Shown here: positions 12,736 to 19,688 of the stretch, piece after piece | How the letters are laid out: every line of letters starts with the position of its first letter | Numbering within the stretch: position 1 is the stretch's first letter | Source of the DNA: Planctomycetota bacterium | GTDB taxonomy: Bacteria; Planctomycetota; JAMOSO01 | Direction of reading: 5' to 3' | NCBI GenBank assembly: GCA_027063065.1 | Contig: JAMOSO010000004.1 | Location: forward strand, 1-19,688 | Length of the DNA: 19,688 nt | Program-made: the position numbers and the translations under genes | Notes under the pieces: generated by a model | The model's database searches: none | Told to the model about the DNA's origin: nothing | The model's input: the letters and a program-made list of their open reading frames with translations, nothing else

Positions 12736-15700
12736 TCAATCTTCTATATTAATGGTCATGATGTGGTGAGAATAATGTGTGTCGTTATAAATACCTGTTA
12801 CAGGGTCTTTGCGGTGATATTCGACCCTTAAGTAATAAGTACCCTTTGGAAAACCGTTTAGATTCCAAGTCATGGTGTAGTTCCAACGTGTTTTAGGTGC
12901 AGGGGCATCTGGTTCTGAACTTAAGAAATAACCTTGTGAAGGCAATCTTGCGGGTGCAGTAATATCAGCAGGTATTTCTAGACCAATATCTTTGGCTTTG
13001 CCTTCGGTATATACAGTGTCAGTGTTTAAATATTTCCAAGTTTTACGATTGTCATCAGAGTAGCCTACTTTAAAAAAGCCATCTGCTCCGGGGGTGGTGC
13101 TTTTATCGTATGTACCAATTTTTGTATATGTTTCACCGTCCCAGCGTTTCCACTGTAAGTTCCATTGCACACTAATAATGCCTGGTTTTTTTAAAGCGCT
13201 CATATCTGTTGGGGTAGTGATTTCAATTAAAGGTATTGGTTTTGTAGGGCATAGAGGATTGTCTGTAGAGCTGGCGCGTAAATGAGAATATAACAAGCTC
13301 ATAATGGCGTATCTTCCGATAAATACCGATCCGATTGTTGCTGTTTGAGCAATACCATGTATGGCAAAATAGCCTAAACGACTTTTATCATTTGGGTCAT
13401 AACATTGCATTAAGCCACTGGCAATTCCGCGTACGGGTTTGCCCCCAGAGGTGGCATATCCAGCATCGTGTTCATAAAACACTTGCAATATATTGGTATT
13501 AGTTCTTTGTGATACATAAGAAGATATATACCATTCGGCACCACCTCTACCTCCATCATTGATTCTCCATGGTCTATTGGATTGGATAGTTGTTGGCATA
13601 ACAATATTAAACATAGTTTCAAAATCATCTTTAATGTCTTGGCTGTTATGGGTAGTGGGCAAAATAGTGGCATTAGATGTCCAAAAATCATGGTCAAATG
13701 TTTTTCCGTTGGGGTTTTTAGCGTTGTAAAAAGATTTACATCCAGTTGTGCGACAACGCCTACCAGAATAGAATTTTTTTGCAGCCGGCACTGCGCTATC
13801 ATCTGCTTTACCAACACGGTAGTAATATGGTAGGGCAGATCCACTTTGCCAGATAGAACTGTCGGCATCTTTGTACAATTCACCAATAGATGGAGCGCAA
13901 ATCCAACCTGTTTTATGGCGTATATAATTTAAGCCATAGCCACCCATTCGTGGATTGCCAGCTCCGCCATTTGTTATGTGTTGTGCCCAACCTTTGCCGG
14001 ATTTGTTGTAGGGTTTACCATTGACGGGTATCGAGTATTTAAATCCATTGGCACTGTCATAGCCTATTTCGTTACCTATACCTATATAGTAAAAAGAATA
14101 ACCATTAATGGTGGTAAAAATAGAATTTGAGTTCATTATGGCTTCTCTTATCATTTGCATCATACGTGGGATGTCGTGTTCTATATGATCTGGCCCCCAG
14201 CCTTTATAATAAGGTTTAATACCTTCAGAGCTGGTTATGTCTGTGTTGGTAAAGAAACAATTATAATGTTTAGCTTTAAATACATCAGCGCATGGTTGGT
14301 ATCTAGGATCGCCCATTAGTTGGTATTTATCCGAAAATACCATGTTTTTATCATCGGCAAGTGATATGAATTTACCAGCTTTATATAAATTATGTATCCA
14401 TGTATGGGTCTGACTAAAATTTTCTGTACGATAGATCCAATTTTGTGGATCTTTAAAGTTTTCACTGCGAACAAATTCGCCATAGCGTGTGCCTGTTACC
14501 AACTCGTTAACGTCAATACCATCGTAATCTGTTTTTTTAAGGTTAATATCCCCGATTCTAGTTTCTACTTTTAACGGTGCAAATAAGTTGTTGATTTCAT
14601 CAGACACTATATTGTCAGGTAAATAGCTTAAGACAGTTTTTAATGATGGAAATGTAAATATCCAACGTGCTGTATTTTTGCGTTCGATACCTGTGGAGGT
14701 TAAATTTTGATCAAAATTGCCTTTAAAAGGGGTGGGCAAATATTCTAATCCATATAATTTGGCAGAGTTTTTTAAACCTCTTGAATTTTTATATGGTGTG
14801 CGTAAGGGGGTGTTGTACAGTCTAATGGCAATACTAAAATATCCTTTAACTGGAGTAATGCCTTGGCTAGAAGTTTTAATAAACACGGGATCGATGCGAG
14901 CATACATCTGATCGTCATCGGCAGTTAAGGCATCGTTTGTAGGGCTTGTGGGGTAGTTTAGACTATGTACGTTTAAATCAAAACGGGATGATGCGGGTGC
15001 AACTCCGCCTTCAATTCTTGTAATGCCAATATTGTTGAGTGATTCAATAATGTGTTCGCGTAAAGTAATCCAATCGTTGGCTTTTGTGTCGCCTAACGAT
15101 ATTTCTTTAAGTTTTATTAAAATTGTTATGGGTATAAGTGATAATCTATCGGGCTTTGTTTGGTCTGGTGCAGAATCTGATTGCCAAGCATATACGCGAA
15201 ATTTAGGATTTTGATCTATATTATAACGTGCATTTTCTGGGTGTGTGACTACTCGTACGCTTTCACTAAAGTTAATTAAGCCGACAACTTCACCTACTTT
15301 ATGTTCGGTTGCAGGGCTATCGTATAGTGCGCGAGTAGTTGAACTAGATTTTTTTTTGAGTATTTCTCCGCCGATATTTAACAAATCATTTAGTATTAAT
15401 GGGGAGGCAACTCCACCTGTATGATAATATAAGTTAGTTTGGCTTGTATTGATGTTTTTGCGTAAAGTAGGTATTGCCGAAGAGCATATTAAAAGAGAAT
15501 TAGCTGACCACCCGCTGGATATGCCAGAGCTTAATCTTATTTGGTTAGGGCTTACATCGATAATGGTGCCTAGCGTAACCATATTAGAACTAATAATAGA
15601 TAGTTTTTCTCCGTTGACTAATCCTTTACTAGATGTAACAGGGATGATGGTGTCGCCAGTATGTATATTGGCCAATAGTATTGCTTGGTGTGTTACAGGG

Positions 15701-17082
15701 CATAAAACTTGGTGTGTTGCGCTAACAGTACCGTATTCGCCACGCGAGATTGTTAATGTTTTTGTATCTTTGTTGATAGCTGTGATACGGCATACTTCGT
15801 TGTCTAAGCGTATATAATCGCCTACTTCCAAATCGGCATCGTCAGCTAAATTGTTTAATTGTGTAACCGATACAGTATTGGACGAAGAATCAATTGTTTC
15901 TCTAATTACGCTATGGGTTGCTTCGACAGCAATTCGATTTAAATCACCAGTAACCAAATTGTTGACCTGTGGGTGTTTAGCTGCATCGGCATAGTTGCGA
16001 GTGGCTGGTACAGGTAATAGCTCGCCATGTAAGTTTATAAAAAGGGCATTTTTATATTTTTGAGGATGTAAATGCATATCATCTAGTAATAAGGTGTATG
16101 GCATTTCTTCGTCTGGATTATTTGCTAAGCGCTTATTGTATAGCTCTAGCATTAAAGGATATGTATTTGCTTGATTATAAGTGTCGGCAACTGTGTATGG
16201 TGCTGGATTGGTTGTTGCATCGTAACCGTTATAAATTTTATCATTTTCATCTTTATGATATGCCTTAACTAATCTTGGTACATAATATTCACTGGTAGAA
16301 CTACCAGAAGGCATAACAGATGGGTAAAAGTAAGGGCTATTGTATGGTGTTTGTGCAGAATCTTTAACAATATTAAAAATAGGGGTATAAAACGGGTTGC
16401 GCCCGTAACCCATTTTTGTAATCCAGTGAACTCTAAAATCTAATCCAGAATTACGACTTTCCAAGTCTTTGATGGCATTTTCTACCTGTGGAATTAAATT
16501 GTTCATAAATACCCACCAGCCAGGTACACTTTCTAATGCTATTGCATATAAATCGTATACTTGTGTCGGTGGAAACCCAGGGTCGGCAGCTGTTTGTATG
16601 ATTGTCCATACTTCAGCTAACATAATGGCATCAGCTTTATTTTTAGATGTTAAAAATATTTGTACTCCAACTTTGCGTACATCCTTAGAGTTACTGTCTT
16701 CTGTGCTTTTTATTACATGAATACGACGTGAATATTTCCAATCAGTAGACTTGGCTGGATTGTTGCCGATTAACACATTATCGCTTATAGGGTTGGTAGG
16801 ATCTGTTATGTCTAATTGCGCACTTAAAATAGGGTTGGTAGAACTGCCGTCGCTTAAGTCGTCTAAGTATACTAAATCACCATCGCTATTTTTGGTTTCT
16901 TGAAAAGTTTTAAGTTCGTTTAAAATTTGCATAGCTTTTTCATAGCCAAACTTCTTTTCTTTGCCAATTTTTGCAAAAGATTGTTGGTTGGTTGTAAACA
17001 ACATAGCAGTCAATAGCGCTACCCCTAAGACGGCGCTGACAATCATTGCTTCAATTAATGTAAAATATTTTTTATTAATCAT
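12736..17082 (-). CDS. giant modular prepilin-like surface protein (1448 residues)
   Basis: I place the start at the ATG of 17080-17082, not at a TTG 24 nt upstream. The ATG overlaps the upstream TAA as TAATG, has GGAG 8 nt before it, and gives a short leader MINKKY followed by FTLIEAMIVSAVLGVALLTA with Glu at +5. The -1 residue is Tyr instead of Gly. After the transmembrane helix come several regions. One, around 173-235, has a strand-helix-strand pattern (DLYAIAL, PQVENAIKDLESR, FRVHWIT) that recalls a degenerate von Willebrand A fold without its metal motif. About 395-535 holds two short beta modules. A long central part is unrecognised. From about 1285 to the end the pattern is Ig/FnIII-like (WNLQWKRW, GTYYLRVEYHRKDP). 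Ordinary pilins have 120-250 residues. It is probably an adhesive or tip component of a type IV pilus or type II secretion-like fibre. Confidence 0.8.
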   Translation of the reverse strand: MINKKYFTLIEAMIVSAVLGVALLTAMLFTTNQQSFAKIGKEKKFGYEKAMQILNELKTFQETKNSDGDLVYLDDLSDGSSTNPILSAQLDITDPTNPISDNVLIGNNPAKSTDWKYSRRIHVIKSTEDSNSKDVRKVGVQIFLTSKNKADAIMLAEVWTIIQTAADPGFPPTQVYDLYAIALESVPGWWVFMNNLIPQVENAIKDLESRNSGLDFRVHWITKMGYGRNPFYTPIFNIVKDSAQTPYNSPYFYPSVMPSGSSTSEYYVPRLVKAYHKDENDKIYNGYDATTNPAPYTVADTYNQANTYPLMLELYNKRLANNPDEEMPYTLLLDDMHLHPQKYKNALFINLHGELLPVPATRNYADAAKHPQVNNLVTGDLNRIAVEATHSVIRETIDSSSNTVSVTQLNNLADDADLEVGDYIRLDNEVCRITAINKDTKTLTISRGEYGTVSATHQVLCPVTHQAILLANIHTGDTIIPVTSSKGLVNGEKLSIISSNMVTLGTIIDVSPNQIRLSSGISSGWSANSLLICSSAIPTLRKNINTSQTNLYYHTGGVASPLILNDLLNIGGEILKKKSSSTTRALYDSPATEHKVGEVVGLINFSESVRVVTHPENARYNIDQNPKFRVYAWQSDSAPDQTKPDRLSLIPITILIKLKEISLGDTKANDWITLREHIIESLNNIGITRIEGGVAPASSRFDLNVHSLNYPTSPTNDALTADDDQMYARIDPVFIKTSSQGITPVKGYFSIAIRLYNTPLRTPYKNSRGLKNSAKLYGLEYLPTPFKGNFDQNLTSTGIERKNTARWIFTFPSLKTVLSYLPDNIVSDEINNLFAPLKVETRIGDINLKKTDYDGIDVNELVTGTRYGEFVRSENFKDPQNWIYRTENFSQTHTWIHNLYKAGKFISLADDKNMVFSDKYQLMGDPRYQPCADVFKAKHYNCFFTNTDITSSEGIKPYYKGWGPDHIEHDIPRMMQMIREAIMNSNSIFTTINGYSFYYIGIGNEIGYDSANGFKYSIPVNGKPYNKSGKGWAQHITNGGAGNPRMGGYGLNYIRHKTGWICAPSIGELYKDADSSIWQSGSALPYYYRVGKADDSAVPAAKKFYSGRRCRTTGCKSFYNAKNPNGKTFDHDFWTSNATILPTTHNSQDIKDDFETMFNIVMPTTIQSNRPWRINDGGRGGAEWYISSYVSQRTNTNILQVFYEHDAGYATSGGKPVRGIASGLMQCYDPNDKSRLGYFAIHGIAQTATIGSVFIGRYAIMSLLYSHLRASSTDNPLCPTKPIPLIEITTPTDMSALKKPGIISVQWNLQWKRWDGETYTKIGTYDKSTTPGADGFFKVGYSDDNRKTWKYLNTDTVYTEGKAKDIGLEIPADITAPARLPSQGYFLSSEPDAPAPKTRWNYTMTWNLNGFPKGTYYLRVEYHRKDPVTGIYNDTHYSHHIMTINIED

Positions 17083-18530: not shown

Positions 18531-18632
18531 ATCCTTTATTCGGTAGCTAGACTGCCATAACTGTTAAAACCAGTTTTAGGCTCTAAAGCTTTGCGTCCTA
18601 TAATTTCTTATAGTTTGCCATTATCGTAAAAC
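18531..18632 (-). ncRNA. cyclic-di-GMP class I (GEMM-I) riboswitch
   Basis: Read on the minus strand, the leader of the pilin-like operon carries the invariant blocks in order. GGCAAAC is at 18619-18613. A 6-bp stem CTATAA/TTATAG is capped by GAAA, the tetraloop that docks in class I aptamers (18613-18598). GGACGCAAAGC is at 18598-18588 and GCCTAA at 18581-18576. The hairpin AACTG/CAGTT is at 18575-18559, then ATGGCAG...CTACCG. A closing P1 helix can form between TTTTACG (18631-18625) and CGAATAAAG (18542-18534), which contains part of the Shine-Dalgarno AAAGGA (18537-18532). There is no room for an intrinsic terminator before the ATG at 18524, so control is probably on translation. Whether ligand turns expression on or off is not settled by the sequence. 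Confidence 0.92.
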
Positions 18633-18649
18633 TTCTCTTCTCAGTATAG

Positions 18650-18677
18650 ATTTAAATGCTAAAACCTTAATAGTCAA
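18650..18677 (-). promoter_or_regulatory. probable promoter of the riboswitch-led pilin-like operon
   Basis: On the minus strand TTGACT (18672-18677) and TTAAAT (18650-18655) are 16 bp apart. An overlapping alternative is TTAAGG (18665-18670) with TATACT (18643-18648), also 16 bp. Either would start transcription a few bases to a dozen bases before the aptamer. Confidence 0.45.
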
Positions 18678-19501: not shown

Positions 19502-19688
19502 ATGAGTTTAAGAAATAAGATTATACTTTTAGTTGTAGGGTCAATAGCTATGAGTAGCGTAGTGATATTGACTGTTGGTTTTGTTGGGCGTGAAAAACTG
19601 ATTAAGAGTATCGATAAAGAATTAGTTAAAGATAGTGAAAACAATTTAAAAACAATTGTGCGTGATATCGTACGTGTTTTAGAAGTGC
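19502..19688 (+). CDS. membrane receptor, N-terminus only (probable chemoreceptor or sensor kinase)
   Basis: Only the first 62 codons are inside the window. AGGGAG lies 6 nt before the ATG. The product opens MSLRNKIILLVVGSIAMSSV with a basic start and one transmembrane helix (about 6-27). An amphipathic, charged helix follows (REKLIKSIDKELVKDSENNL), then TIVRDIVRVLEV. This is the usual beginning of methyl-accepting chemotaxis proteins and sensor kinases that carry a Cache-type periplasmic ligand domain. The output domain is beyond the edge, so the choice between chemoreceptor, kinase and diguanylate cyclase is open. The 390-bp gap before it suggests its own promoter. Confidence 0.65.
   Translation, partial: MSLRNKIILLVVGSIAMSSVVILTVGFVGREKLIKSIDKELVKDSENNLKTIVRDIVRVLEV

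Follow-up and report, generated by a model that had tools for sequence, protein, structure and literature searches.

A class I c-di-GMP riboswitch aptamer adjoins a minor-pilin operon encoding a predicted giant modular pilin in an uncultured Planctomycetota lineage

Riboswitches for cyclic dinucleotides have been described ahead of type IV pilus genes in other bacteria. In Geobacter, GEMM-Ib riboswitches precede pilM and pilMNOP; they sense cGAMP and act by transcription termination on genes for assembly proteins (PMC9262584, PMC6456294). The type IV pilus operon of C. difficile, the main pilus operon of that species, carries a c-di-GMP-II riboswitch, whose aptamer class is unrelated to GEMM-I (PMC11477304). 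Within the GEMM-I fold, the selectivity for c-di-GMP or cGAMP is set by nucleotide 20 (PMC6456294, PMC9262584). Modular pilins, which join a pilin head to extra binding modules, are known and widespread; Streptococcus sanguinis PilB, which has a vWA module and a length of about 450 aa, is one example, and the most extreme multi-domain case named has 860 aa (PMC8179133). No report of GEMM-I before pilins in Planctomycetes was found in the literature searched.

How does the present locus compare with these systems? It lies in a window of 19,688 nucleotides (the whole stretch of DNA that was analysed). As in Geobacter, an aptamer of the GEMM-I fold stands before type IV pilus genes and, as in C. 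difficile, a c-di-GMP riboswitch is found on a pilin operon. In contrast to the Geobacter riboswitches, the aptamer is of the c-di-GMP type, adjoins the start codon and precedes minor pilins. The second gene of the operon shares with S. sanguinis PilB the combination of a pilin head and extra modules but encodes 1448 aa, with modules that have no Pfam match. The locus probably represents a class I c-di-GMP riboswitch that controls the translation of a three-gene minor-pilin operon with a giant modular tip pilin; ON at high c-di-GMP is mildly favoured (Table 1). Computation shows the aptamer with a specificity base of the c-di-GMP type, its adjacency to the operon, the conservation of the operon, and the c-di-GMP and pilus machinery of the genome.

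Table 1. Leader and operon features, in window positions
Feature	Position	Strand	Basis
c-di-GMP-I (GEMM-I) riboswitch aptamer	18539..18629	-	RF01051, 80 bits, E 1.3e-14, full length; also phylum model
P2 hairpin CUAUAA-GAAA-UUAUAG; GAAA tetraloop 18607..18604	18598..18613	-	Rfam alignment; covarying helix
G equivalent to Vc2 G20, selectivity base for c-di-GMP vs cGAMP	18619	-	Rfam alignment; invariant G11 of phylum alignment
CC; C18543 is the C92 equivalent, which pairs with a ligand guanine; CC alternatively pairs with Shine-Dalgarno GG	18542..18543	-	Folding
UAAAG, possible P1 3' strand, pairs with UUUUA 18631..18627 and overlaps Shine-Dalgarno	18534..18538	-	Folding
Shine-Dalgarno AAAGGA, 7 nt upstream of ATG	18532..18537	-	Sequence
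Possible sigma-70-like promoter, weak: TTGACT 18677.., TATACT 18648..	18648..18677	-	String scoring, low confidence
Gene 1: PilX-like protein, 480 aa	17082..18524	-	ORF; 27-32% identical homologues precede the giant gene in related loci
Gene 2: giant modular minor pilin, ~1448 aa, ATG start	12736..17082	-	ORF; homologues; PF07963 in relatives; head like GspI/XcpV, Z 8.0-8.9
~235-aa insert in gene 2 product, residues 382-616 counted from TTG	15259..15963	-	Homologous blocks stop at ~380, resume at ~616
Gene 3: PilW-like prepilin, 417 aa	11481..12734	-	ORF; PF07963 in 12/13 alignment members

The aptamer was searched for with cmscan, taking in the whole window and all 4227 families of Rfam 15, a check that an earlier sequence-only reading of this DNA had proposed. 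The match to RF01051 (c-di-GMP-I) scores 80.0 bits, where the gathering score is 35, and the only other matches in the window are two tRNAs. The alignment spans model positions 1-87 of 87 and the invariant positions are kept, which bears out the earlier description of the GEMM-I blocks as standing in the correct order, GAAA tetraloop included. The interval then given, 18531-18632, was essentially right; its strand, left unstated, is the minus strand. The GAAA tetraloop in P2, its receptor CCUAA..UAUGG in P3 and the A of GCAAAGC are all intact in the Rfam alignment.

A covariance model of 23 riboswitches from the same phylum, the window sequence among them, also recovers the aptamer, at 83.5 bits. 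The helices of this model covary, with 95% of cells paired compared with 74% in shuffles and with slid controls also far below, and two-sided changes occur in 10 of the 13 pairs. Across the 23 sequences, the core positions vary little or not at all. The element is a class I c-di-GMP aptamer, matched far beyond chance, and is in itself an ordinary member of a textbook riboswitch class. Like the GEMM-I aptamers Vc2 and Cd1, it matches the model over its full length and has the equivalents of G20 and C92 as well as the GAAA tetraloop with its receptor, and no difference is seen in the aptamer; by contrast, the window leader has a peculiarity of its own, a weak, AU-rich P1 that runs into the Shine-Dalgarno sequence. 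The genome (2.13 Mb, 90% complete) holds a single copy of RF01051, the one in the window.

Which dinucleotide would this aptamer bind? Many pilus and cytochrome genes of Geobacter stand under GEMM-Ib riboswitches, and an aptamer for 3',3'-cGAMP before pilus genes would have precedent there (PMC6456294). However, GEMM-Ib is marked by A at position 20, and the equivalent base here is G; we assigned the Vc2 G20 and C92 equivalents ourselves, by transferring that numbering to the Rfam alignment. In a Geobacter GEMM-Ib, the change A20G shifts selectivity to c-di-GMP (PMC6456294). The signalling enzymes of the genome also speak against cGAMP: seven of its eight GGDEF domains have GHxxGD, with the Asp kept. 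GHxxGD is the ordinary form of diguanylate cyclases, and Hypr enzymes have Ser there. It is extremely unlikely that the aptamer senses cGAMP, and c-di-GMP would be its ligand.

Judged by their motifs, at least seven catalytic-looking diguanylate cyclases appear to be encoded, along with one strong and one partial EAL domain and seven PilZ proteins. The pilus machinery comprises four full PilB/GspE-like ATPases, several shorter ATPases, PilC and PilD, and 13 N_methyl proteins are present. The diguanylate cyclases and the PilB, PilC and PilD genes that the sequence-only reading had suggested looking for are all found in the genome.

Only 14 nt lie between the end of the aptamer (18539) and the ATG of gene 1 (18524), in agreement with the earlier placement of the aptamer directly before the pilin operon. 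This distance leaves no space for a terminator, so that translation initiation is the natural target, and control would be translational. Two scans gave no convincing promoter upstream of the aptamer, one of them omitting the TTGACT/TATACT pair; by string scoring, TTGACT has as its partner a poor -10 element, 16-17 nt off, and the alternative, TATACT, a poor -35.

How would binding of the ligand alter translation? In the unconstrained ViennaRNA ensemble, computed with neither ligand nor tertiary contacts, the CC at 18543-18542 pairs with the GG of the Shine-Dalgarno sequence, and once C18543 is blocked, these two Gs reach unpaired probabilities of 0.88 and 0.75, compared with about 0.1 before. 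In the ON model, the ligand-pairing C and its neighbour would hold the Shine-Dalgarno GG in the ligand-free state; c-di-GMP would take up this C and free the Shine-Dalgarno sequence, and high c-di-GMP would lead to more pilus-tip adhesin. The CC:GG hairpin has two pairs only, which limits the model. The folding energy of the leader is no better than that of shuffles (z -0.26) and, being unremarkable, leaves ON to be offered as a hypothesis.

The same aptamer and operon might instead form an OFF switch, in which c-di-GMP would stabilise P1, and the overlap of UAAAG with the Shine-Dalgarno sequence would block translation at high c-di-GMP. Five pairs between UUUUA and UAAAG plus CG/CG are possible and, once P1 has formed, the AAAG of the Shine-Dalgarno sequence is fully paired, which argues for OFF. 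GEMM-I OFF switches exist, for example Cd1 of C. difficile (PMC9262584). However, P1 consists of A-U and G-U pairs only beyond the CG, the state with P1 lies about 4 kcal/mol above that with the pocket alone, and in Cd1 binding takes place with no P1 helix detected (PMC9262584). The release of CC:GG and the covering of the Shine-Dalgarno sequence by P1 point in opposite directions, and the sign is the least certain part of the proposal. ON is mildly favoured because P1 is weak here, because of the behaviour of Cd1, and because the riboswitch-controlled pilus gene pilM is ON (PMC9262584); OFF is a real, if less probable, alternative.

The three genes are tightly packed. The stop of gene 1 and the ATG of gene 2 overlap in TAATG, and gene 3 begins 1 nt past the gene 2 stop. 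The order is the same in 14 of the 14 related loci listed gene by gene: a protein of about 360-490 aa with a hydrophobic N-terminus, the giant protein, and a prepilin-type protein of about 310-390 aa. This shared order marks the operon as a conserved unit. The proteins of the window operon match no Pfam or NCBIfam model. Among their relatives, PF07963 (N_methyl) is matched by 12 of 13 members of the gene 3 alignment and by 22 of 32 members of the giant-protein alignment, the window protein being without a match in either. In gene 1, no Pfam pilin family, including those of PilX/GspK type, matches any of 13 members; its gene position and N-terminal hydrophobic helix place it as PilX-like, in the PilX/GspK position. 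The earlier description of three pilin-like genes is well supported for genes 2 and 3; gene 1 is a candidate by position and hydrophobic helix only.

The N-terminus of the gene 2 product, KKYFTLIE, keeps Glu+5 and lacks Gly-1. Tyr rather than Gly precedes the expected cleavage site in the products of both gene 2 (KKY/FTLIE, the slash marking the site) and gene 3 (KHY/FSMLE). This may explain why PF07963 misses the two window proteins.

The giant protein has about 1448 aa from its ATG, or 1456 aa from the TTG start chosen by the ORF tool. Its relatives range from 1043 to 2119 aa, where 2119 is an open frame and the complete ones measured reach 2105. AlphaFold2 models have mean pLDDT values of 55 and 56 and are usable for residues 1-350 and the C-terminal 170 only. 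In these parts, a helix at residues 9-67 is followed by strands, the arrangement of a pilin or pseudopilin head after a long alpha1. By VIA-align, the head matches the minor pseudopilins XcpV/EpsI (GspI) with Z 7.4-8.9. S. sanguinis PilB is the top Foldseek match, a weak one (E 4.4e-3), with Z 5.6 on the head. An alpha/beta domain occupies model residues 173-350, and the C-terminus is Ig/FnIII-like, with Z up to 7.9, a score at which many unrelated beta-sandwiches tie. On these models, the giant protein is predicted to be a modular pilin, in which a minor pilin of the GspI/PilV type carries large additional modules.

Two further observations concern its modules. The domain after the pilin head had been guessed from sequence to be a vWA domain; VIA-align, which matched PilB on the head only (residues 41-165), does not support this identity. 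The insert of about 235 aa is absent from every relative seen and resembles repeated small beta modules.

Given the PilW/GspJ type of gene 3 and the PilX/GspK position of gene 1, the simplest reading is that the operon encodes a tip complex whose GspI/PilV subunit is modular. The giant pilin is probably a tip adhesin, which would display its binding modules at the pilus tip. If the proposal is true, a single RNA adjusts the adhesive pilus tip to the c-di-GMP level, and the c-di-GMP lifestyle switch is tied directly to one pilus-tip operon in an uncultured Planctomycetota lineage.

Counting the window's own genome, 30 of 392 genomes from the phylum have homologues of the giant protein. In named genomes, confirmation was obtained for 96 candidate loci, most of them from Planctomycetota, with others from Acidobacteriota and one Elusimicrobia MAG. 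They represent a family of giant modular pilins that is unannotated although widespread in Planctomycetota, Acidobacteriota and others, and whose modules have no Pfam or NCBIfam model. RF01051 is present in 131 of the 392 genomes. Where a genome has both the riboswitch and the giant pilin (e.g., G025, G049, G051, G053, G362, G382), they lie in different places. No riboswitch was found at the other giant-pilin loci (0/99), many of which have less than 2 kb upstream, too little to inform (the 1.5-kb flanks of L032-L050 and several short contigs). Comparative support for the link between riboswitch and giant pilin is thus absent.

Could the aptamer then be a decayed or non-regulatory remnant that stands before the operon by chance? 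Its absence from the other giant-pilin loci examined would fit such a view. However, the aptamer retains every invariant position and a high score, it is placed exactly at the start codon, and other pilin genes of the phylum also have GEMM-I ahead of them; a remnant is very unlikely. The genes first downstream of RF01051, as read from translations, include PilM (L030), major-type pilins (L168, L179), small PilV/PilW-like prepilins (L169) and a PilX-like protein (L172). The pairing of GEMM-I with pilin genes thus recurs in the phylum.

The riboswitch and its general pairing with pilus genes are known; a riboswitch on the giant pilin family is unreported in the literature searched. Of the novelty suggested by the sequence-only reading, what stands is the pairing with the giant pilin, found only here; GEMM-I on pilus genes is known elsewhere and recurs in the phylum. 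We are evenly divided on whether this is the first c-di-GMP-I riboswitch that directly controls translation of a giant (>1,000 aa) modular pilus-tip family, acquired within the lineage, the relatives compared being of phylum level only. The closest relatives of the window's genome among the compared genomes belong to the same phylum and none is nearer. Those that could be matched to named records are Planctomycetota such as Candidatus Brocadiia, which places the genome in that phylum and gives no support to the earlier impression of a Lentisphaerota-like genome; that guess is probably traceable to the KKYFTLIE-type prepilin ends.

Several other riboswitch loci were observed in the phylum. In genome G168, a c-di-GMP-I riboswitch (L182:212-298) lies ahead of two genes for small PilV/PilW-like prepilins, an independent pairing of riboswitch and minor pilins. 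Two pilin genes in genome G087 follow a riboswitch (L184:178-271) whose best score is to c-di-GMP-I-GGC (RF03167), not RF01051. In about a dozen Planctomycetota loci, RF01051 stands directly before a gene for a FliA/WhiG-like flagellar sigma factor, as read from translations (L002, L004, L005, L006, L009, L010, L013, L020, L021, L022, L028, L167, L170, L176). Genome G048 (L012, L025), of family f42, has 35 c-di-GMP-I riboswitches in 3.6 Mb, and many genomes of this family have at least 10 each. Their neighbours include an NrfH-like cytochrome, which suggests anammox-type bacteria. Behind the riboswitches at L012 and L025 lies a terminator formed with the aptamer 3' strand, an arrangement that suggests ON logic.

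At the far end of the window, the plus strand from 19502 to 19688 holds the first part of an ORF that resembles a membrane sensor (MSLRNKIILLVVGS...) and is cut by the contig end. It is possibly a methyl-accepting or Cache-type sensor.
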